Below are positions 30,034 through 46,300 of a DNA stretch of 64,000 nt, piece after piece (the first letter of the stretch is position 1; every line of letters starts with the position of its first letter). Position numbers and translations under genes: made by a program. The DNA is taken from positions 5,562,001 to 5,626,000 of the forward strand of contig NC_015914.1 in assembly GCF_000222485.1 (NCBI RefSeq). The letters run 5' to 3'. Source of the stretch: Cyclobacterium marinum DSM 745. Its GTDB lineage: Bacteria; Bacteroidota; Bacteroidia; Cytophagales; Cyclobacteriaceae. The notes under the pieces were generated by a model. That model did not search any database. It was not told the origin of the DNA and was given only the letters and a program-made list of their open reading frames with translations.

Positions 30034-31278
30034 ATGATGGGACAGTTTAGATTAATGAGCTTTAGTACAAATTTATACAATTTAAAAAGCGACGCGTTTT
30101 ATTTAGACTTCGAGGAAACAAAACAGTTGATGCTGGAGCTGAAGTCATGGCCAGAAATTCAAGAATCTTTTATTTTATCACTCCCCGAAAGGATAGAAAT
30201 TTTATACTACAGTAATTTTGATTTGGAGGACAAAATTTTTGAAGCAGTAGCTGACTGTAAGGGGGTTAATGTACTACCCATCAAAAGTGAATTCAACCAG
30301 ACATCAGATGAAGAAAAATTATTTATTCATCTATCCGAATTGTGTTTTGGGGTACAGGCATCAAACTATGGCACCACACCCCTATTTCCCCAATTTTCCA
30401 AAGCCTATGATTTTGCTGCTGAAAGTGGAATGATCGGTGAATATTTGGAGCAATGGTGGGATAACCTAATTAGTACCGATAAGCTCCTTAAAGAACAAGC
30501 GGATTATCAATTACCCAATTTTTCCATCTCCTATATTGTTTCCGATTTACTGACTGAATTGGTAAATAACGTAAGGGGACCTAAAATTGCAATAATTGGA
30601 TTCAACGCATTGAGCAAAAGAATATACCGAAACCTTTCCAACCAAGGCTATGGGAACATCACAATAGTAGACAAAAGCATAACTTCATGCCTTAATTTTA
30701 AAGGAAAAGAATTGAACAATTTTACTTTTGAACCTTTGAATAAAGTTGAAAATGTAATAGGTGAGAATGATATTCTAATTTCTACTTTAGAGGATGCAGA
30801 TCGATTTTTGCCATCATATTATTTTAAACATGATTTTCTTGACACCAAGATTTTTATTGATTTATCTATTAAGAGCACTATAACATCAGTTTTAAGTGAT
30901 TATAACCAAGTTATACCATTTAACCTTACTGACATTTATAAAATTATTGAGCAAAAGATGGAAATCAATAAAAAATGGTTGAAAAAAGCCAAACCTCTAG
31001 TTATTAAAAAGAATCAAAAATTCTTTGACTGGATCGATAATAAGAAAGCGCAAAAAATGTTGGGGCTGATAAAATCATATCTTAAAGAAAACGTAAACCA
31101 AATTGAATATTCAAAGGTTTTAACTTCTAATGAGCCCTTATCAAATTTTGATTTGGTCCATCATAAAAGAAATAAAATTTTACTAAAAAAATCCATTGAA
31201 AAAATCAAACGGAATACTCAATACAAGGATATCATCAACTACGATAAAATTGTCAACGAGTTTTATCAATATAATTAG
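30034..31278 (+). CDS. Glutamyl-tRNA reductase-like protein lacking the catalytic cysteine
   Basis: This 414-residue protein follows the HemA (GluTR) layout: N-terminal domain (residues about 8-160), then the linker FSISYIVSDLL matching the family's SVSYAAVEL, a nucleotide-binding domain (IAIIGFNALSKRIYRNL, then NITIVDKS, ILISTLED, IFIDLSIKS) and a helical C-terminus. The canonical catalytic motif STCNRTE is replaced by SLPERIE at residues 49-55, so the nucleophilic Cys is absent, and the GLDSxVxGE stretch is lost (GVQASNYG). It is probably a pseudo-enzyme paralog. The stop TAG is formed at the junction with an insertion sequence, but the native TAA would give the same protein end. Confidence 0.72.
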   Translation: MMGQFRLMSFSTNLYNLKSDAFYLDFEETKQLMLELKSWPEIQESFILSLPERIEILYYSNFDLEDKIFEAVADCKGVNVLPIKSEFNQTSDEEKLFIHLSELCFGVQASNYGTTPLFPQFSKAYDFAAESGMIGEYLEQWWDNLISTDKLLKEQADYQLPNFSISYIVSDLLTELVNNVRGPKIAIIGFNALSKRIYRNLSNQGYGNITIVDKSITSCLNFKGKELNNFTFEPLNKVENVIGENDILISTLEDADRFLPSYYFKHDFLDTKIFIDLSIKSTITSVLSDYNQVIPFNLTDIYKIIEQKMEINKKWLKKAKPLVIKKNQKFFDWIDNKKAQKMLGLIKSYLKENVNQIEYSKVLTSNEPLSNFDLVHHKRNKILLKKSIEKIKRNTQYKDIINYDKIVNEFYQYN

Positions 31279-31341
31279 GGCTTCTTGCTGATTTATTAAT
31301 TGCTTGATAACCAGTAGAATAAATAACAAAAATATAACATA

Positions 31342-31383
31342 AAAACCCCGAATTTGGCTGTTTAAAGCTTTTTTCGGGGTTTT
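31342..31383. terminator. Hairpin at the left end of IS copy 1 (transcription insulator)
   Basis: AAAACCCCGAA (31342-31352) pairs with TTCGGGGTTTT (31373-31383), an 11-bp perfect stem with a 20-nt loop, T-rich on the downstream side. It lies between the IS end and the transposase start (31419) and would block read-through transcription into the transposase. Confidence 0.7.
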
Positions 31384-31418
31384 CTTTTTTGTATTTTAAG
31401 GTTGCAGAATAAAATACT

Positions 31419-32771
31419 ATGAAAGATACAGCGCAACTACAGATTTTCAAAGACTTCGACGGATATTCTCCAAAATATCATTTTTTTAAGAATTCGTTGT
31501 TTGGCCAGATAAAAGATTCCATCCCCTGGGATGAGCTCGCAGGATGTCTTCCGGCAGAGAATACAGGTCCGGGCGCTCCCAGGTGGTTTGATGCCAAGGG
31601 AATGTTTGGCATGATGTTCCTCAAAGCCTACCTCAATGTCAGCGACAGACAGCTCATCGAAAGGTTCAATACAGATTACAGTTTGCAGCTGTTCTGCGGC
31701 AAACTTCTGGCCGAGGACAAACAGATCAGGGATTATACCCTTATGACAGGGATAAGGGCCTATATTGAAGATCACTGTGAATGGGAACAGGTTCAGTCAG
31801 TACTGCTCAACCACTGGAAAAAGGATGTGAACAATTCCCATGTACTTCTCATGGATGCCACCTGCTACGAGAGCTATATCCGCTTTCCTACCGATGTGAA
31901 ACTTTTGTGGGAGTGCTGTGAATGGGTGTTTGAAAAGCAACTTTTCAGGTTGTGCAAGATCCTGAAGACCAAAAGGCCGCGTTCTAAATACCGGGAACAG
32001 AAGATTAAGCAGCTTGTCTATTTCAGGAAAAGGAGGAATACCCATAAAGAGACGCTTCGCAGAAGGAAATCGCTGGTCTACCTGTTGGAAAAAGGAATCG
32101 AGCAACTTCAGCAAATAATGGATATGTTCAGGGGAGAATGTATGAGGCCGGAAGATTTTGCCTGTTTGAGAACCATCAAGAAAATTCTGGTACAGCAGAC
32201 ATTTTTGTTGACCCACAAACCATCTGAGCTCAAAGACAGGATCGTTTCCCTTCACAAACCCTATGTCAGGCCAATAGTAAGGGGAAAAGAAAACAAACCC
32301 GTGGAGTTCGGAATGAAGGTACACATGCTGCAGGTCGACGGGCTCTCTTTTATAGATAAGATGAGTTTCAGAAACTTCAATGAATGTAAAAGGCTGAAAA
32401 TCTCCGTGGTGAAACACAAAACAGTTTTCAAGGGAACAACACAGCTTGGCGCAGACCGAATATATGCCACCAACGAAAACAGAAGATACTGTACCGGAAA
32501 CAGCATATTCACCTGCTTCCCCAAAAAGGGTCCTAAAAACCACTCCAAAGCTGAAAAAATACTCAGCAGCGAAATATCAAAGCAAAGGGCAACGGTAACG
32601 GAAGGTATTTTCGGAACCCACAAAGATCATTACGGGCTTAGAAAAATTAAAGTCCGGGGAGAAAAACGGGAGAAGCTGATGGTGCTTTTTGCAACCATGG
32701 CGGCCAACGCGGTAAAAATCGCAAAGAAAAGAAACCAGGAGGAGCCTGCACCAAGAGAGAAGGCAGCCTAA
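31419..32771 (+). CDS. IS transposase (DDE type), copy 1
   Basis: This 450-residue transposase has an N-terminal DUF772-like domain (DAKGMFGMMFLKAYLNVSDR). DDE catalytic residues are likely in LLMDATCYES (first Asp), LGADRIYAT (second Asp) and TEGIFGTHKDHYGLRK (Glu). A basic stretch lies between the first two (TKRPRSKYREQK). Together these are the features of IS1182/IS5-superfamily transposases. The protein is the same as that of copy 2 at every position, so both copies are recent and probably functional. Long open frames on the opposite strand are shadows. Confidence 0.9.
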   Translation: MKDTAQLQIFKDFDGYSPKYHFFKNSLFGQIKDSIPWDELAGCLPAENTGPGAPRWFDAKGMFGMMFLKAYLNVSDRQLIERFNTDYSLQLFCGKLLAEDKQIRDYTLMTGIRAYIEDHCEWEQVQSVLLNHWKKDVNNSHVLLMDATCYESYIRFPTDVKLLWECCEWVFEKQLFRLCKILKTKRPRSKYREQKIKQLVYFRKRRNTHKETLRRRKSLVYLLEKGIEQLQQIMDMFRGECMRPEDFACLRTIKKILVQQTFLLTHKPSELKDRIVSLHKPYVRPIVRGKENKPVEFGMKVHMLQVDGLSFIDKMSFRNFNECKRLKISVVKHKTVFKGTTQLGADRIYATNENRRYCTGNSIFTCFPKKGPKNHSKAEKILSSEISKQRATVTEGIFGTHKDHYGLRKIKVRGEKREKLMVLFATMAANAVKIAKKRNQEEPAPREKAA

Positions 32772-33092
32772 AGAGAAAAACGATCAAAAAATCTTTATCG
32801 TGGGATACCTATGCCCATTGGATAAAAGGTCAAAGAAAACCTACCCAATGCTCCACCAAATTGCACTTTACCGTAGTCGAATTGTACTGCTGATCAGAAG
32901 ACAAACACACAAACTAACCACGAAGAGATTAGTTTATCCTTACGTGGTCAAATTTTATCGAATTTTCCAACAAGCCCTAATTAATCCTTTTTAAATAATT
33001 TTTGGGCTTTGTAATTAAAGCTTTCGGCAATAATTCAAAAGAAATTTTCAACTTTTCACTGGTTAAGCCAAAACATAAATATTACTTTTTAC

Positions 33093-33378: not shown

Positions 33379-33409
33379 TTTGCAAGTTTGCAATAGCTGA
33401 CTAAATTTG
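33379..33409 (+). promoter_or_regulatory. Promoter of the his operon
   Basis: TTTG at 33379-33382, a 19-nt spacer, then TAAATTTG at 33402-33409. This is the full Bacteroidota housekeeping promoter consensus (TTTG-N19-TAnnTTTG). The expected start of transcription is at about 33415-33418, that is, at or just before the leader peptide ATG at 33417. Confidence 0.75.
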
Positions 33410-33416
33410 CAATACT

Positions 33417-33506
33417 ATGATGACATCAGGAAGTTTCTTCAATAACACAATATTTTTATCTCCGGCGAATGCAATTATGCATCATGCAGGTCATCATTGC
33501 TCCTAA
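33417..33506 (+). CDS. hisL: his operon leader peptide (His-rich)
   Basis: This 29-codon frame begins ATGATG and ends MHHAGHHCS. It has four His codons (CAT) in six positions near the end, with Phe- and Asn-rich text before (FFNNTIF). It sits between a consensus promoter and hisG. In known amino-acid operons, ribosome stalling at such a run when charged tRNA-His is scarce changes downstream RNA structure. The first eight bases (ATGATGAC) can pair with GTCATCAT at 33490-33497, inside the His codons. A short form starting at 33477 is possible. It is below the usual size limit for gene calling. Confidence 0.72.
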   Translation: MMTSGSFFNNTIFLSPANAIMHHAGHHCS

Positions 33507-33512
33507 TAGCAA

Positions 33513-33546
33513 TTCCCCCTCCTTTTCATCCCTTACCCAGGGGGAA
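33513..33546 (+). promoter_or_regulatory. Attenuator-like hairpin after the his leader
   Basis: TTCCCCCT (33513-33520) pairs with AGGGGGAA (33539-33546), an 8-bp perfect stem with an 18-nt loop, beginning 7 nt after the leader peptide stop. No T-run follows, so it is not a standard rho-independent terminator. It may act by another route, or as one of two alternative structures. The hisG ATG is 46 bp downstream. Confidence 0.6.
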
Positions 33547-33592
33547 ATAATCAAACGAAATATATTCTAGTATTTATTGTATACATTATTCC

Positions 33593-34453
33593 ATGGAAAA
33601 CATTATCAGGATTGCCGTTCAAAAAAGTGGTCGCCTAAGTGACGATTCTCTTAAACTTATAAAAGAGTGTGGCATTAAATTTCATAACGGCACAGGTAAA
33701 TTAAAGTCTTCATCCACCAACTTTCCGATTGAATTTTTGTTCCTAAGAGATGACGACATCCCAGGATACGTAGCAGATGGCATTGCTGATTTGGGTATAG
33801 TAGGCGAAAATGAGCTGGTAGAGAAAGATAAAAATGTCAATGTGTTAAAGAAGTTAGGCTTTTCAAAATGTAGACTGTCATTGGCAATTCCAAAAGGAGA
33901 AGAATACTCGGGAATTAATTATTTTGAGGGTAAAAACATTGCCACCTCCTACCCTAAAATCCTTGAAAATTATTTGAAAAAGGTAAACATAAATGCTGAC
34001 ATCCATGAAATCAGTGGTTCTGTTGAAATCGCACCTAGCATAGGTCTTGCTGAAGGGATATGTGACATTGTGAGTTCAGGGTCCACTTTAATGATGAATG
34101 GCCTTAAAGAAGTAGAGGAAATTTTTCAATCTGAGGCTGTTCTTATTAGCAATAAAGATATCACTACTGAAAAACAAGCTACAGTTGAGAAATTACTCTT
34201 TAGGATGGGGGCTGTCCAAGAAGGCAAAAAGAACAAGTATGTTTTACTAAATGCGCCGAACGATTCTTTGGATAAAATTTTATCTCTAATCCCCGGAATG
34301 AGAAGTCCTACCATATTGCCTTTGGCTGAAGCCGGTTGGTCTTCTGTTCATTCGGTCATTAGTGAAGATCAATTTTGGGAGAATATTGAAGAATTAAGAA
34401 ATGCAGGAGCCCAGGGTATATTGGTTGTTCCCATTGAGAAAATGCTAATATAG
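33593..34453 (+). CDS. hisG: ATP phosphoribosyltransferase (long form)
   Basis: This 286-residue HisG catalyses the first step of histidine synthesis (ATP + PRPP to phosphoribosyl-ATP). The substrate-binding periplasmic-protein-like fold is seen in IRIAVQKSGRLSDDSLKLI, GIADLGIVGENEL and the PRPP loop GLAEGICDIVSSGSTL. The C-terminal ACT-like regulatory domain (about residues 205-286) places it in the long, histidine-inhibited, HisZ-independent class. It is the first structural gene after the leader. Confidence 0.97.
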   Translation: MENIIRIAVQKSGRLSDDSLKLIKECGIKFHNGTGKLKSSSTNFPIEFLFLRDDDIPGYVADGIADLGIVGENELVEKDKNVNVLKKLGFSKCRLSLAIPKGEEYSGINYFEGKNIATSYPKILENYLKKVNINADIHEISGSVEIAPSIGLAEGICDIVSSGSTLMMNGLKEVEEIFQSEAVLISNKDITTEKQATVEKLLFRMGAVQEGKKNKYVLLNAPNDSLDKILSLIPGMRSPTILPLAEAGWSSVHSVISEDQFWENIEELRNAGAQGILVVPIEKMLI

Positions 34454-34542
34454 GAATCGATTGTAAACTGATAAACAAATCTCTTCCCATACAATATACA
34501 ATACCTAGGAAGAACTTGTTCCCATTACAAATTTCAAAGCGT

Positions 34543-35835
34543 ATGAAAATCCTGGTAAATCCTAGCAAGAAAAGCTGGAAAAAAGAACTGGCAAGGCCTG
34601 TTCAAAAAACAAAGGACATAGAAAAGATCGTGAAACCGATCATGAAAAAAGTAAAGCGGCAAGGAGACAAAGCCTTACGTAAATTTGCTTTCGAGTATGA
34701 TCATGTGGAAATAGAATCGATAGTAGTAGATCCTTCGGAAATAGAAAATTCAGGAAAGCATGTCGACAAAACACTAAAGAGTGCCATAAAGACGGCTAAA
34801 TCCAATATTGAAAAATTTCACAAGCTTCAGGAAACTCCGGACTTGAGTACTGAAATAATGGATGGGGTCACCTGTATGCGTAGAAGTGTTGCCATACAAA
34901 AAGTAGGCTTATATGTACCCGGAGGAACGGCTCCATTGTTTTCTACAGTATTGATGCTTGGCATACCTGCAAAACTGGCAGGATGTCAAGAGATTGTACT
35001 TTGTACACCTCCCGGCCCAAAAGGGCAAGTTCACCCGGCTATTTTATATGCTGCCAAACTGATTGGCATTACTAAGGTAATCAAAGCCGGGGGTGCTCAG
35101 GCCATTGCTGCACTAGCATATGGCACAGAATCCGTTCCCAATGTTGACAAAATATTTGGCCCCGGAAACCAGTATGTTACAGCGGCAAAACAATTGGCGG
35201 CCAAAAAGGGAGTAGCCATTGATATGCCTGCAGGCCCTTCCGAAGTGCTGGTTTATGCAGATAAAACTGCCATTCCAGCATTCGTTGCAGCAGATTTGCT
35301 TTCGCAAGCTGAGCACGGTGCAGACAGTCAAGTAGTGTTGGTTTGTCCTTCTGAGACCATTGTAAATAAAGTAATGGAACAGGTAGACCAACAGCTGAAG
35401 GAACTTCCAAGACAAAAAACTGCTGAAAAAGCATTGAAAAACAGCTTAGCGGTTGTCATTGATAAGATGGAAACAGCATTGGAGCTAATCAACGAATATG
35501 CTCCCGAACACTTAATTATCAATGTTGAAAATGAAGACAAAGCAGTGGCAGGAATTGTTAATGCCGGTTCTGTGTTTATAGGCAATTACACCCCTGAGTC
35601 TGCCGGAGATTATGCATCAGGCACCAACCACACCTTACCCACCAATGGCTACGCGAGAAGCTTTTCAGGAGTTTCCCTAGACAGTTTTGTAAAGAAGATT
35701 ACCTATCAAAAAATCACCGAGCAAGGGTTAAAAGAATTGGGGCCTGTTATAGAAGTCATGGCTGAAAACGAACAACTTATGGCGCACAAACAAGCAGTAA
35801 GCATCCGTTTGAATTACCGAAAAAAAGACAAGTAA
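34543..35835 (+). CDS. hisD: Histidinol dehydrogenase
   Basis: 430 residues from the ATG at 34543 (MKILVNPSKKSW); the frame extends to a TTG at 34516 that is probably not used. HisD motifs: VGLYVPGGTAPLFSTVLMLG, GGAQAIAALAYG, KIFGPGNQYVTAAKQL, DMPAGPSEVLVYAD, and the zinc ligands in AEHGADSQ and GDYASGTNHTLPT. It oxidises L-histidinol to L-histidine in two NAD-dependent steps. It starts 89 bp after hisG, and hisC follows after 3 bp. Confidence 0.97.
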   Translation: MKILVNPSKKSWKKELARPVQKTKDIEKIVKPIMKKVKRQGDKALRKFAFEYDHVEIESIVVDPSEIENSGKHVDKTLKSAIKTAKSNIEKFHKLQETPDLSTEIMDGVTCMRRSVAIQKVGLYVPGGTAPLFSTVLMLGIPAKLAGCQEIVLCTPPGPKGQVHPAILYAAKLIGITKVIKAGGAQAIAALAYGTESVPNVDKIFGPGNQYVTAAKQLAAKKGVAIDMPAGPSEVLVYADKTAIPAFVAADLLSQAEHGADSQVVLVCPSETIVNKVMEQVDQQLKELPRQKTAEKALKNSLAVVIDKMETALELINEYAPEHLIINVENEDKAVAGIVNAGSVFIGNYTPESAGDYASGTNHTLPTNGYARSFSGVSLDSFVKKITYQKITEQGLKELGPVIEVMAENEQLMAHKQAVSIRLNYRKKDK

Positions 35836-35838
35836 GAA

Positions 35839-36909
35839 ATGGCATTTGATCTTCAGAAATTGCTAAGGCCACACATTGCTGCATTGAAGCCATATTCCTC
35901 CGCCAGAGATGAATATACAGGTAAAGAAGGGATATTTCTTGATGCCAATGAAAATGCGATAGGCTCAGTATCTGAGCAAGCATTTAACCGATACCCTGAT
36001 CCTTATCAGTCAGAATTAAAGAAAAAAATAGGTGAGCTAAAACAAGTACTTCCGACCAATATATTTCTTGGTAATGGAAGTGACGAAGCAATAGATTTGC
36101 TATTTAGGGCTTTTTGCAGACCTGGATTAGATAATGTGATAATCATGCCCCCTACTTATGGGATGTATGAAGTAAGTGCAGGTATAAACGATATAGCAAC
36201 TAAAAAAGTACCTCTTTCCACTTCTTTCGAGATTGAGGTGGGAGAGGTTTTGGCAGCTGTAGATGAATGCACGAAAATTATTTTTATCTGCTCCCCAAAT
36301 AATCCTAGTGGAAATAAAATTTCCCGCCAATCCATCTATCAAATCTTGACCAATTTTGATGGTTTGGTAGTGATTGACGAAGCATATATTGATTTTAGTG
36401 ATGAACCTAGTTTCAGTTTAGAGCTAAACCATTATCCAAACATGCTTGTCATGCAAACACTTTCCAAAGCGTGGGGATTGGCAGCATTACGTTTGGGAAT
36501 GGCTTATGCCTCGAAGGAGATAATTGGTATTCTGAATAAAATAAAGCCTCCTTATAATATTAGTGGATTGACACAAGAAACGGTGCTAAATGCCTTGAGT
36601 AACACAAAGCTGTTGGAAGACATGGTGAAGGAAATCTTGGTTCAAAAGGAGAAATTAATTTTGGCTTTGGAAGAGATTCCTGAAGTTGAAAAAGTTTATC
36701 CTTCAGCAGCTAATTTTCTTTTGGCAAAAGTACCCCATGCCAGCCAAGTATATCAAAAATTGATCGAAGAAAAGATTATTGTAAGGGACCGATCAAAGGT
36801 TCAACGCTGTGAGGATTGTTTGCGTATAACGGTAGGAAATGAGGAGGAAAACAAGCAATTTATTCAGGCCTTAAAAGAGGTCCTACAAGTCCATACGAAA
36901 ACCACTTGA
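35839..36909 (+). CDS. hisC: Histidinol-phosphate aminotransferase
   Basis: This 356-residue PLP-dependent class I/II aminotransferase has FLDANENAIGS near the N-terminus, FLGNGSDEAIDLLFRAF, CSPNNPSGN, VVIDEAYIDF, and the PLP-binding lysine in QTLSKAWGLAALRLGMA. It converts imidazole acetol phosphate to histidinol phosphate. It is 3 bp after hisD and 12 bp before hisB, in a tight operon. Confidence 0.96.
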   Translation: MAFDLQKLLRPHIAALKPYSSARDEYTGKEGIFLDANENAIGSVSEQAFNRYPDPYQSELKKKIGELKQVLPTNIFLGNGSDEAIDLLFRAFCRPGLDNVIIMPPTYGMYEVSAGINDIATKKVPLSTSFEIEVGEVLAAVDECTKIIFICSPNNPSGNKISRQSIYQILTNFDGLVVIDEAYIDFSDEPSFSLELNHYPNMLVMQTLSKAWGLAALRLGMAYASKEIIGILNKIKPPYNISGLTQETVLNALSNTKLLEDMVKEILVQKEKLILALEEIPEVEKVYPSAANFLLAKVPHASQVYQKLIEEKIIVRDRSKVQRCEDCLRITVGNEEENKQFIQALKEVLQVHTKTT

Positions 36910-36921
36910 ACAAATTAAAGC

Positions 36922-38022
36922 ATGAAAAAAAAGCTATTATTTATAGATAGGGATGGTACCATTATTAAAGAACCACCTACTGATTTTCAGGTAGACAGTC
37001 TGGAAAAACTTGAATTTATCCCTAGGGCAATCAGCAACTTGGTTAAAATTGCAGAAGATCTAGAATTTGAATTAATTTTGGTAACCAACCAAGATGGTTT
37101 GGGGACAGATTCATTTCCGGAAGAGACTTTCTGGCCGGCCCAGTTCAAAATGCTTAAAACACTAGAACAAGAGGGTGTGTTTTTCAAAGACATTCATATA
37201 GACAAGACTTTTGAGCATGAAAATGCCCCTACTAGAAAACCAGGGACTGCTTTACTTACTGCTTATCTTAACGGGGATTATGATTTGGAGAATTCCTTTG
37301 TAATTGGAGACCGAGAGACCGATGTAACCTTAGCCAAAAATCTAGGTACAAAATCTATCTTTTTTGGTAAAGAAGCGGTGAAAGCTGCGGATATATCGGT
37401 GGACAATTGGGATAAGATTTATGAATTCTTGAAGCTTCCTCCCCGGAAAGCAGAGGTGGTGAGAAAAACAGCCGAAACCAATATAGACATTAAATTGAAC
37501 CTCGATGGCACAGGAAACAGCAGTATTAGTACCGGTCTACCATTTTTTGACCATATGCTGGATCAACTCGCCAAGCACGGAGGTTGTGACCTAGAGATAA
37601 AGGTAGAGGGAGACTTACATATAGATGAACACCATACCATAGAAGATACAGGATTGGCTCTTGGCGAAGCTTATCTGAAAGCAATGGGAGATAAAAAAGG
37701 CATCTATAGATATGGGTTTTTACTCCCTATGGATGATTGTCTGGCTCAAGTTGCTGTTGACTTTGGAGGGCGTCCTTGGATTGTTTGGGAAGCCGAATTT
37801 AAGCGTGAAAAAATTGGTGATATGCCTACCGAAATGTTCTATCATTTCTTCAAGTCTTTTAGTGATACTTCTAAATGTAATTTGAATATAAAGGCTGAAG
37901 GTGACAATGAACACCATAAAATAGAAGCCATATTTAAAGGCCTGGCAAGGGCAATTAAAATGGCAGTAAAGAAAGACCTTGATGCTTTGGATCAACTTCC
38001 AAGTACCAAAGGCACTTTATAA
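36922..38022 (+). CDS. hisB: Bifunctional histidinol-phosphatase / imidazoleglycerol-phosphate dehydratase
   Basis: 366 residues. The N-terminal HAD phosphatase ([12 protein letters not shown], with Asp9 and Asp11, and a zinc-loop region around [19 protein letters not shown]) is fused to a C-terminal IGP dehydratase (residues about 180-366) with [25 protein letters not shown] and [23 protein letters not shown]. The zinc loop lacks the usual cysteine set seen in the E. coli enzyme. IS copy 2 is inserted at its TAA stop codon. The remaining his genes (hisHAFI) are not found in the window. Confidence 0.95.
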
Positions 38023-38231
38023 TTAGGGCTTGTTGGAAAATTCGATAAAATTTGACCACGTAAGGATAAACTAATCTCTTCGTGGTTAGTTTGTGTGTTT
38101 GTCTTCTGATCAGCAGTACAATTCGACTACGGTAAAGTGCAATTTGGTGGAGCATTGGGTAGGTTTTCTTTGACCTTTTATCCAATGGGCATAGGTATCC
38201 CACGATAAAGATTTTTTGATCGTTTTTCTCT

Positions 38232-39584
38232 TTAGGCTGCCTTCTCTCTTGGTGCAGGCTCCTCCTGGTTTCTTTTCTTTGCGATTTTTACCGCGTTGGC
38301 CGCCATGGTTGCAAAAAGCACCATCAGCTTCTCCCGTTTTTCTCCCCGGACTTTAATTTTTCTAAGCCCGTAATGATCTTTGTGGGTTCCGAAAATACCT
38401 TCCGTTACCGTTGCCCTTTGCTTTGATATTTCGCTGCTGAGTATTTTTTCAGCTTTGGAGTGGTTTTTAGGACCCTTTTTGGGGAAGCAGGTGAATATGC
38501 TGTTTCCGGTACAGTATCTTCTGTTTTCGTTGGTGGCATATATTCGGTCTGCGCCAAGCTGTGTTGTTCCCTTGAAAACTGTTTTGTGTTTCACCACGGA
38601 GATTTTCAGCCTTTTACATTCATTGAAGTTTCTGAAACTCATCTTATCTATAAAAGAGAGCCCGTCGACCTGCAGCATGTGTACCTTCATTCCGAACTCC
38701 ACGGGTTTGTTTTCTTTTCCCCTTACTATTGGCCTGACATAGGGTTTGTGAAGGGAAACGATCCTGTCTTTGAGCTCAGATGGTTTGTGGGTCAACAAAA
38801 ATGTCTGCTGTACCAGAATTTTCTTGATGGTTCTCAAACAGGCAAAATCTTCCGGCCTCATACATTCTCCCCTGAACATATCCATTATTTGCTGAAGTTG
38901 CTCGATTCCTTTTTCCAACAGGTAGACCAGCGATTTCCTTCTGCGAAGCGTCTCTTTATGGGTATTCCTCCTTTTCCTGAAATAGACAAGCTGCTTAATC
39001 TTCTGTTCCCGGTATTTAGAACGCGGCCTTTTGGTCTTCAGGATCTTGCACAACCTGAAAAGTTGCTTTTCAAACACCCATTCACAGCACTCCCACAAAA
39101 GTTTCACATCGGTAGGAAAGCGGATATAGCTCTCGTAGCAGGTGGCATCCATGAGAAGTACATGGGAATTGTTCACATCCTTTTTCCAGTGGTTGAGCAG
39201 TACTGACTGAACCTGTTCCCATTCACAGTGATCTTCAATATAGGCCCTTATCCCTGTCATAAGGGTATAATCCCTGATCTGTTTGTCCTCGGCCAGAAGT
39301 TTGCCGCAGAACAGCTGCAAACTGTAATCTGTATTGAACCTTTCGATGAGCTGTCTGTCGCTGACATTGAGGTAGGCTTTGAGGAACATCATGCCAAACA
39401 TTCCCTTGGCATCAAACCACCTGGGAGCGCCCGGACCTGTATTCTCTGCCGGAAGACATCCTGCGAGCTCATCCCAGGGGATGGAATCTTTTATCTGGCC
39501 AAACAACGAATTCTTAAAAAAATGATATTTTGGAGAATATCCGTCGAAGTCTTTGAAAATCTGTAGTTGCGCTGTATCTTTCAT
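38232..39584 (-). CDS. IS transposase (DDE type), copy 2
   Basis: The 450-residue protein equals the copy 1 transposase over its full length, including the likely DDE residues in LLMDATCYES, LGADRIYAT and TEGIFGTHKD. It is transcribed on the minus strand toward hisB. An insulating hairpin upstream at 39620-39661 mirrors that of copy 1. Confidence 0.9.
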   Translation of the reverse strand: MKDTAQLQIFKDFDGYSPKYHFFKNSLFGQIKDSIPWDELAGCLPAENTGPGAPRWFDAKGMFGMMFLKAYLNVSDRQLIERFNTDYSLQLFCGKLLAEDKQIRDYTLMTGIRAYIEDHCEWEQVQSVLLNHWKKDVNNSHVLLMDATCYESYIRFPTDVKLLWECCEWVFEKQLFRLCKILKTKRPRSKYREQKIKQLVYFRKRRNTHKETLRRRKSLVYLLEKGIEQLQQIMDMFRGECMRPEDFACLRTIKKILVQQTFLLTHKPSELKDRIVSLHKPYVRPIVRGKENKPVEFGMKVHMLQVDGLSFIDKMSFRNFNECKRLKISVVKHKTVFKGTTQLGADRIYATNENRRYCTGNSIFTCFPKKGPKNHSKAEKILSSEISKQRATVTEGIFGTHKDHYGLRKIKVRGEKREKLMVLFATMAANAVKIAKKRNQEEPAPREKAA

Positions 39585-39619
39585 AGTATTTTATTCTGCA
39601 ACCTTAAAATACAAAAAAG

Positions 39620-39661
39620 AAAACCCCGAAAAAAGCTTTAAACAGCCAAATTCGGGGTTTT
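39620..39661. terminator. Hairpin at the transposase-proximal end of IS copy 2
   Basis: AAAACCCCGAA at 39620-39630 pairs with TTCGGGGTTTT at 39651-39661, the exact mirror of the hairpin in copy 1, upstream of the minus-strand transposase. Confidence 0.7.
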
Positions 39662-39754
39662 TATGTTATATTTTTGTTATTTATTCTACTGGTTATCAAG
39701 CAATTAATAAATCAGCAAGAAGCCCTAATTACACTTTCCATTCTCAGTTAATAC

Positions 39755-43304: not shown

Positions 43305-46300
43305 CTAGTGATCTTCTTTATCCAAAGTAACCAAAAAGCTAATTAAATCACGAATCTCTCGTTTGGTCAATAGCGCCTTCATATCCGGCATGGAAGACAA
43401 GGCATTGGTACGTTCTTTTATATTATCTTTGGATATTTTCTTTTCAGGTTCATTGCCTATTTTTAAAATAATATCGTTTTCACTTTCCTTGACTACTATA
43501 CCTGAAACGCTTTTACCATCATTTAGTTTTAAGCTAACAGCACCATAACCATCGGCTATTTTGTTACTTGGAGCCACAAGAGCCTCCAATAATTCTTTTC
43601 TACTCAATCTTTTTGCGACACCATTTAATCGAGGCCCGGCACTACCTCCAAAATCATCGTAAGAATGACATCGCATGCATTGAGCACTCTGGTTTTGAAA
43701 GAAAATCTTTCTACCTTCTATTTTATCTCCTCCAAATAGACTACTATTATAACTTGCCATTACATCACCTTCGTACATTTCCGAGATAATGGAATTGTAT
43801 TTTGTCAACAAAGCTTCATTCCCTAATGTCTCAAGTGCTTCACTTAATTCCAATTCAACGGCAGAAGGCAAACTTTTATTTTTCATGGCCTCTAGCAATC
43901 GGATAAAAACTGGAACAGCATAAGTTGAATCTACTTTTCCTAAAGCTGTTATAGCTGCTTGCCGTTCTTCTAATGTTTGGTTCAATGTAACTTTTTCCAA
44001 CAAGTTGGCTGCAGTATTTCCGGAAAGGTCCAGCTCTCCCAAAATAGCCAAGCCGGCTATCCTAACACTTTTGTCTTGGTCTGTAGTTGCCAATTCCAAT
44101 GCAACTTCTATTTCATCAGAATCAATATTGGACAAAGCCTTGATAGCAGCTTCTCGGACCGCAGCTACCTTGTCTGTTTTTAATAGACTTAACAATTTAT
44201 CTGAAGCATCTGAAATTTTTAAGCTTCCGATAGCAGCCACTGCTGATTTTCGTATTTCAGAATTGGTATGGGCTGTTAATTTCATTAATGGATCGGAGGC
44301 CATAGCGCTAATGCCTTGAAGGTCTCGCTTCATTTCACCTCTAAACCTTCCCGTAACCCTGTCAAGCAATGAAGGGCTGTCCCAAGTTGATAAAGCTTCG
44401 ATGGCTTCAATCCTCATTTCTTCGGGAGCAGATTCCAAACCTATGAAATCTAATACTAAGCCTAAGGATTTTGCATTACCAACCCTCAAATTGGCATTGA
44501 TTGCTCTTCGGAGTAATGGTTCAGAACTTAATCCTCTCCTATTTAAAATTTCCCCTAAATTAGGCAAAGCTTCTTCGATAGAAAAGTCATCATTAATTGC
44601 TCTGGCTGCTTCAGCCAATATGTATTCTTCCTGATCATCTAAAAATAATGCTACCTCCGGAGCTTGCATCCGTCGCAAAGCTACTACCGCAGCCACCCTC
44701 ACAGCCCTAGAAGGGTGATTGTGCAAGGCTGCAATTGCTGAAAGATCTCCTATTCTTGCCAGGGCCAAGCTTCCGGCATGCCGAATATAAACATCTTCAT
44801 CATTGTTGTTGGCTAAAAGACCTATGATTGGTTGAACAGCAGCTTGAGCTTTGATTCTTCCCAAAGCTTCCGCTGCAAAAAATTGTACACGTGGAGCCTT
44901 GTCTTTAAGAAGTGGAATTAATGCGTTTGTTGCAAGAGTATATCTTATGTCCCCTAACCATCTTGCCGCTTGTGCTCTGATTTCTGAGTCCGAATCTTCC
45001 AGTAAAGGAAGTAATAAATCGCCGGCATTTTCTTCCCCCGATCGAGCCAACTGAGCAATTCCCCAGATGGCATGAATTCTAGCTAACTCCTCATTATTTG
45101 CGGCTAGTTTTTCCTTAAAAATTTCCAACCCTTCGCTGCCCCTTTTGGCCAATTCGAACTGGGCTTTTTGGCGCACACGCTGATCAGGGTGGCCCAACCA
45201 ATTCCCAAGGTCTTCCTTATCTTTATTTTTAAAATCAGCCTTGATCAAAATTTCTGTATCTTTCCTTATTTGGCTATTTACTCCTATTGAATCTTCAAGC
45301 TTCCATACTCTTCCATTGTCTTTGGTACCCCAACCATCAATCCAATCGGCAAAATAAAGGGCACCGTTCGGGCCAAAATCCATTCCGGTAGGCAGTAGTC
45401 CTCCTAAGATTTTTTTAGACTCCGTCATTTCAAAACCTGCCCCTTTGGGATTTAACTTAAATGCATAAATACCAGATCTAGCCGGATTACCTGAAAAACC
45501 GGCTACAAAAAAAGTATTCTTCCACCTTTCTCCTAATGCAGTTCCGGGATTGTATAACATACCTGTAGGACCATTGATATAGTTTTTTATGGGTGGAAGA
45601 AAGTAGGCCGCCTGTCCATCCTGTCTGGGTTTAGCCATATTTTCATCCATCCAAACCTTATACCCATTGTTTTTTGGATCTCTGTACTTACCAAATTGCC
45701 AATTGATCCTCCAGCCGGTATCAGAGCCTTCAACCAAATAAACAAGCCGTTCACTTTCACCACGATGGTCACCATCATTGTCAACACTGATAAGGTTTCC
45801 ATAGTCATCAAAAACGAACTCATGGGTATTTCTGACACCCATTGCAAAAATTTCGAAATCACTCCCGTCAGGATTAGAACGAGCGATTACTCCCCTATTC
45901 GGATACTTATGCTCAATCCCATTTTGATCCACTCCATTGAAACCTATATCCCCAATACCCCAATAAACTCTACCGTCAGGTCCCATTTCCAAACCTGACA
46001 TTCCATGTCCTCCAAAACCAATATGAAGTCCATAGCCATGAGAAATAGAAACTTTCTTGGATGCCAATCCTGTCTTTGGATCCTCACTCACCCGCCACAT
46101 GTCAGGAGCAGCCCCTACAAATAATTCATCACCATGCTTCATTACTGCACCTGCCACATCTGTCACTTCCTCATATAACTCATCAAATACCAACTGATAT
46201 TCATCTGCCAAACCATCTCCATCTGTATCTTCAACACGATAAATATGGTCTCTTTCCACAGCCATGTCTTTCCAGTCGTGAAATCCATCCCCATTGACAT

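Follow-up and report, generated by a model that had tools for sequence, protein, structure and literature searches.

The element preceding the hisGDCB operon of Cyclobacterium marinum DSM 745 is, judged by its sequence, very probably an attenuator that works through a near-leaderless histidine leader peptide. We can say with good confidence that this leader has no canonical intrinsic terminator in the Cyclobacterium/Algoriphagus/Belliella clade, where none was found before hisG above the shuffled rate among 81 loci. The loss is specific to his and to a clade, since trp and ilv leaders and other genera of the family keep their terminators. It is a little short of an even chance that this clade of Bacteroidota has swapped a his terminator-attenuator for a terminator-less switch, in which a near-leaderless leader places its stop codon in the loop of a hairpin directly behind the control codons and a stalled ribosome would hold that hairpin open and either shield the transcript from Rho or free hisG translation, with trp and ilv keeping canonical terminators; a second family, f23, may have done likewise independently.

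The histidine leader frame and its promoter

The window, that is the whole stretch of 64,000 nucleotides analysed here, carries hisG, hisD, hisC and hisB at 33593-38022 (+ strand, as are the promoter, leader frame and hairpins described below), with the hisG ATG at 33593 and a Pfam HisG match. There is a single copy of hisG in the 6.22-Mb genome, and hisF lies outside hisGDCB at G000:C1:3216524-3217994, with a weaker match adjoining. The HisG proteins of the nearest named relatives (among the best 80 of 127) are from Cyclobacterium species and are 96 and 94% identical. The operon is flanked by two 1712-nt insertion-sequence copies (31272-32983 and 38020-39731), which are inverted, 100% identical and of the DUF772/DDE transposase type; the right copy overlaps the final 3 nt of the hisB frame.

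Two sets of loci were compared. The clade set comprises the window plus the best 80 of its 127 relatives, with 500 nt extracted upstream of hisG in each; the 81 loci are related, and the counts given for them are not independent events and are inflated by relatedness. Short motifs define three groups, A, B and C, with the window among the 17 loci of group C; one Cyclobacterium locus, L015, is counted in group A for the hisG-proximal box and the C-minus-G counts and is absent from alignment A2. For the phylum set, 252 of 296 genomes had hisG and 89 loci picked among the stronger matches were read, distant HisG forms (E ∼1e-40 and weaker) being left out. In this set the short frame richest in His was treated as the leader, and a few assignments may therefore be wrong.

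Upstream of hisGDCB, positions 33417-33506 translate as MMTSGSFFNNTIFLSPANAIMHHAGHHCS*, a frame of 29 codons with the control codons CAT CAT GCA GGT CAT CAT (an HHxxHH run) at 33480-33497. This frame, ending MHHAGHHCS right before hisG, had been picked out in an earlier sequence-only reading of this DNA; its letters are correct, and it stands well above shuffled sequence. When the 300 nt before hisG in the window were dinucleotide shuffled, four His in eight residues arose in 0 of 300 sequences and three in 10 of 300. That reading also looked to an HH-x-x-HH leader in the hisG upstream regions of relatives, and His-rich frames are indeed there. A frame with at least three His in eight residues is found in all 81 clade loci (shuffles, 27/405), and within 300 nt of hisG at least four His are present in 73 of the 81 against 4 of 405 shuffled sequences. 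The usual leader ends in the clade are HHFHHSS*, HHMHHSS* and HHAGHHCS*, and every in-frame gap in alignments A1 and A2 has a length divisible by three. Across the phylum set a His-rich frame precedes hisG in 79/89 loci, with at least four His in 68/89 (shuffles, 13/445 and 3/445), and a His leader is therefore widespread in the sampled Bacteroidota. An alternative ATG at 33477 would give a 9-residue peptide, although its counterpart stands directly before the first HH in just 12 of the 81 clade loci. A further CAYCAYN6CAYCAY match lies elsewhere in the window, at 45758-45775. The leader-peptide attenuator reading follows from the His-rich frames in clade and phylum loci together with the conserved gap between promoter box and ATG described next, and it is highly probable that a functional His leader is present.

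A sigma-A type promoter, TTTG-N19-TAAATTTG, occupies 33379-33409, with TTTG at 33379-33382, 19 nt, and TAAATTTG at 33402-33409; 7 nt further on the leader ATG begins at 33417. Every letter of the full TTTG-N19-TAnnTTTG promoter reported earlier was confirmed, and box and spacing are kept in relatives. TAnnTTTG ends 6–10 nt upstream of the leader ATG in 80 of the 81 clade loci (6 nt in 2, 7 in 15, 8 in 18, 9 in 37 and 10 in 8), the exception being L055, which has TAACTTTA in its place, and a TTG is found 19 nt upstream of the box in 75 of the 80. The promoter-plus-ATG pattern by itself occurs at chance level within the window (1 found, 0.87 expected). A genome-wide search for box plus ATG gave at least 194 matches against 98 with the reversed pattern and was too unspecific to be used.

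In Flavobacterium psychrophilum the promoter box is placed at −12 to −5 in the available text of PMC9723704. From this position, taken over from another genus, transcription is predicted to start at about 33414 (33414-33414), 3 nt before the ATG, giving a 5′ UTR of ∼3 nt; the gap of 6–10 nt in 80/81 loci likewise predicts 5′ UTRs of ∼2–6 nt. The leader ATG, proposed earlier to lie at the expected transcription start, would thus be near-leaderless, and as a prediction from box position we consider this very likely. Such a start is a minority arrangement, as leaderless mRNAs account for 5.5% (PMC9723704, available text) and some 3.7% of 5′ UTRs are shorter than 10 nt in B. thetaiotaomicron (PMC7366714, available text). 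Nor is it universal among the his leaders of the phylum sample: the exact box lies 2–10 nt before the start in 26 of 89 (four of them clade members), 11–20 nt before it in 14 and further away in 16, and is lacking in 33.

Hairpins and terminators of the leader region

The hairpin of 8 bp that had been described after the leader stop is present as P3, UUCCCCCU...AGGGGGAA, at 33513-33546, its stem formed by 33513-33520 and 33539-33546 around an 18-nt loop. No T-run lies behind it, as had also been claimed, and our analysis of sequence and post-stop hairpins extends this lack of a U-tract to the whole clade. A home-made terminator finder, which requires a T-tract behind a hairpin of −5 kcal/mol or better, returned 6 matches in the 81 clade loci and 15 in 243 shuffles, which is the shuffled rate, and in all six clade matches the hairpin is the stop-codon one, with an A+T run behind it. 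Counted over the 8 nt that follow the best post-stop hairpin, the clade has a mean of 2.8 T, where 2.5 are expected, and trp leaders have 6–7. These best hairpins have a mean stability of −8.9 kcal/mol, ranging down to −13.

Terminators are found readily in the comparison leaders. All 11 trp leaders (10 of the genus and one outgroup) have one, at −17.9 to −20.1 kcal/mol, and in the ilv leaders (MLVVVSLVVLIVIII or MFILVSLVVLIVIII) of five Cyclobacterium genomes a hairpin and then a T-run can be seen by eye; no exact box adjoins the start of these ilv leaders. Leaders were assigned in all but 8 of the 89 phylum loci, and terminators were present in 60 of the 81 phylum his leaders searched, or 60 of 77 without the clade members L082-L085. 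Three loci from other genera of the same family (L089, L095 and L098) have canonical his terminators. Outside the window, the C. marinum genome has its own near-leaderless trp leader with a terminator, MKNQNQNWWWLSYFF (L206, ∼1313-1360), and its own ilv leader with a hairpin and T-run, MLVVVSLVVLIVIII (L253, ∼1286-1333).

The leader RNA of the clade has several other features. A T-run at 33453-33457 lies within the frame; runs of at least four T occur in 81/81 clade leaders (codon permutations: mean 41, maximum 52) and of at least five in 73/81 (mean 15, maximum 24). Hairpin P1, AUGCA-AUUA-UGCAU, at 33469-33482, ends at the first His codon, and its pairing is conserved: it is paired in 94.0% of cells in ten Cyclobacterium sequences, and in 76.7% in Algoriphagus, with compensatory changes (at pair 45-58, GC 7, CG 6, UA 6, GU 4, UG 2, AU 1 and unpaired 10).

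Hairpin P2, AUUGCU-CCUAAU-AGCAAU, at 33496-33513, has the stop codon (33504-33506) in its loop. Compared with shuffles its z is −2.27 in the window, where 4 of 100 shuffles are as stable, and −3.0 on average in the clade, with 53/81 loci at ≤0.05 and 28/81 not significant. The equivalent stop-codon hairpin has a mean z of −0.14 in terminator-bearing leaders (7/60 significant) and −0.71 in other terminator-less leaders (5/17). In Belliella and others P2 takes the form UUCCUCC-UAA-GGAGGAA and is paired in 97.7% of cells, with a modest covariation score in group B (0.148; 52 of 500 shuffles score at least as high); in the Cyclobacterium alignment P2 is paired in just 55.0% of cells and P3 in 56.3%. 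As a whole the local fold is ordinary (z −1.01; equal or better stability in 27 of 200 shuffles). A CATATC-like motif near leader nucleotide 20 of group B recurs in the invariant post-stop ATATCGCCC (A1 columns ∼19-24 and 108-116).

The sequence-only reading had further proposed an alternative pairing, AUGAUGAC:GUCAUCAU, between the first bases of the frame and its His codons. Although ATGATGAC at 33417 and GTCATCAT at 33490-33497 are where they were placed, the pairing itself found no support. In ten Cyclobacterium sequences none of its 8 pairs has a compensatory change and its covariation score is 0.039 against 0.049 in shuffles; it is present in one local minimum-energy fold and absent from a longer one, and group A and B leaders lack ATGATG at their start. 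AUG by nature complements CAU, a His codon, and any frame that has both a start codon and His codons therefore offers such pairing. No mutually exclusive antiterminator helix appears in the consensus folds, in which group B yields P2 alone and group A part of P3. A pairing between the P3 loop and the His codons, suggested by visual inspection of some Algoriphagus and Belliella, was rejected, as the loop is lost in L026, L035, L040 and L081, and a possible group B helix, AUAUCGCC:GGC..GGUAU, was noticed by eye in part of the members. A GGAGGA after the stop was considered as a Shine-Dalgarno sequence and dismissed, the window having no GGAGGA there; Bacteroidota ribosomes fail to recognise Shine-Dalgarno sequences, according to the available text of PMC9976891. 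A known riboswitch or leader family (his leader, T-box or others) was rejected as well: with Rfam 15, two tRNAs alone reach the gathering score in the whole window, the leader region searched at E up to 10 gives four matches, all below gathering and implausible, and there is no match in the 18 of 80 relatives examined.

Candidate control steps

The missing T-run had been taken to suggest a control step different from the standard terminator. This stands as far as the U-tract is concerned, which is absent clade-wide; as to which step replaces it, the sequence leaves Rho-dependent termination, control of hisG translation and termination without a U-tract as candidates. Rho is the likeliest single OFF step, at modest odds. 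As in attenuation generally, stalling at control codons would be the signal. A ribosome would initiate at the AUG adjoining the 5′ end of the mRNA and, with ample His-tRNA, complete the leader and depart, upon which P2 would close and Rho would end transcription near P3 before hisG translation begins. When histidine is short the ribosome would stall on the His codons, reach into P2, hold it open and bar Rho, so that the operon is expressed. The footprint of a stalled ribosome should reach P2, so P2 would close only after the ribosome leaves. The complete statement, a leader-peptide attenuator of hisGDCB on a near-leaderless mRNA whose OFF step is Rho and not a canonical terminator, we put forward tentatively, with roughly one chance in three of being right in all its parts.

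The post-stop RNA is C-rich and G-poor, which fits Rho-dependent termination: the unpaired part is 36% C and 2% G in the window, and C minus G averages from 10.7 (group B) to 24.2% in the terminator-less leader groups; his leaders with a terminator average 3.2%, and the sequence ahead of the promoter averages 6.6% over the 81 loci. The bias was rejected as proof of Rho and does not single it out, because the trp leaders of the genus, which do have terminators, score 20.5%.

If the leader instead controlled hisG translation, a stalled ribosome would refold the 86-nt spacer and thereby raise or lower the frequency of hisG initiation, with no premature termination. The best post-stop hairpin does sit at a fairly fixed place, ending 41–60 nt upstream of the hisG ATG in 76 of 81 loci, and leaderless Cys leaders of mycobacteria are said to regulate downstream translation in the available text of PMC9031893. 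However, when 14 of the 81 sequences were folded around a simulated ribosome, the hisG start did not respond in a consistent way; it is 0.51–0.55 unpaired in the window whichever of the four states is taken, with shifts of ∼0.1 in some other sequences. The consensus folds have no helix over this start, and we regard the translational explanation as rather unlikely, at about one chance in four. A slightly smaller share of our belief goes to an intrinsic stop at an unusual site, either P3 with no U-tract or, for some Algoriphagus, P2 with an A+T run behind it. Many loci have a stable P3, to −13 kcal/mol, and a T-rich tract comes after P2 in 14 group A loci (6 reaching −5 kcal/mol and 8 weaker), but the matches at −5 or better occur at the shuffled rate (6/81; 15/243), group C including the window has none from P2, and the trp and ilv leaders of the genus use U-tracts, from which it follows that its polymerase is served by ordinary terminators.

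That the leader is a relic or plays a minor part, control having moved elsewhere, such as to a second promoter at hisG, is very improbable. The box TAnnTTGY, the SM5 promoter box of PMC9723704 (available text), stands exactly 4 nt upstream of the hisG ATG in 44 of the 64 group A and B loci and may act as an internal promoter yielding a leaderless hisG transcript; it is nevertheless absent from all 17 group C loci, window included, and the leader frame is kept in 81/81 loci and the promoter in 80/81. Groups A and B contain two more TAnnTTGY boxes at 3 nt and two sigma-A boxes at 5 nt; an example of the hisG-proximal box is L008 2989-2996.

Known systems and other lineages

The his operon attenuator of E. 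coli and Salmonella is the classical case of ribosome-mediated attenuation. The element described here shares with it a short His-codon leader frame directly before hisG, and differs in having no U-tract terminator, a near-leaderless start as predicted, four His in two pairs and no Rfam match; of the marks of a classical attenuator, a frame rich in codons for the product is thus found before the first gene, and an intrinsic terminator is not. Within the genome, the trp leader MKNQNQNWWWLSYFF also has a run of control codons before its operon and an ATG 9 nt after TATATTTG, but it differs in its textbook terminator, −19.5 kcal/mol and then T7. Of 77 sampled his leaders outside the clade, 60 carry canonical terminators, whereas those of the Cyclobacterium/Algoriphagus/Belliella clade do not.

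In the literature searched, PMC9723704 holds the one statement found on a hisG leader element in Bacteroidota. Its available text describes a structured 5′ element of hisG in F. psychrophilum and reports strong signs of attenuation by leader peptides upstream of amino-acid operons. Both elements are structured, lie upstream of hisG and belong to the same phylum; the F. psychrophilum element is described for Flavobacteriaceae, and the likeness is one of description. Leaderless leader peptides are known from mycobacteria in the available texts of PMC9031893, PMC4633059 and PMC9094748, among them leaderless short frames with poly-cysteine (Canestrari et al. 2020, via PMC9031893 and PMC9094748). 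They too have a leader frame at the mRNA 5′ end, here a predicted one, and amino-acid control codons, although they concern cysteine in another phylum with an experimentally tested mechanism. In the openly accessible literature searched, supplements aside, no his leader of Bacteroidota is described as terminator-less or near-leaderless. What is already in print is the flavobacterial hisG 5′ element with signs of leader-peptide attenuation; what is new is the clade-wide absence of a canonical terminator.

Attenuation is textbook RNA control, yet searchable papers say little of it in Bacteroidota. A comparison within one cell, in which his has no terminator while trp and ilv have theirs, makes the step controlled by the stalled ribosome testable, and the near-leaderless sensor peptide and its wide conservation add to the testability of terminator-less control.

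Other lineages also have his leaders with no terminator. In family f23 it is absent in all 8 loci read (L155, L159, L160, L161, L164, L165, L167 and L168), the exact box lies 4–5 nt before the ATG or GTG of a His-rich frame in 7 of the 8, and a hairpin spanning the stop is significant in 3 (L159, L164 and L168); this family may have lost its his terminator independently. Two loci of family f2, in the same order as C. marinum, have His leaders with no terminator match: L106 ends HHSS and has a significant stop-codon hairpin, and in L119 the stop-codon hairpin is not significant.
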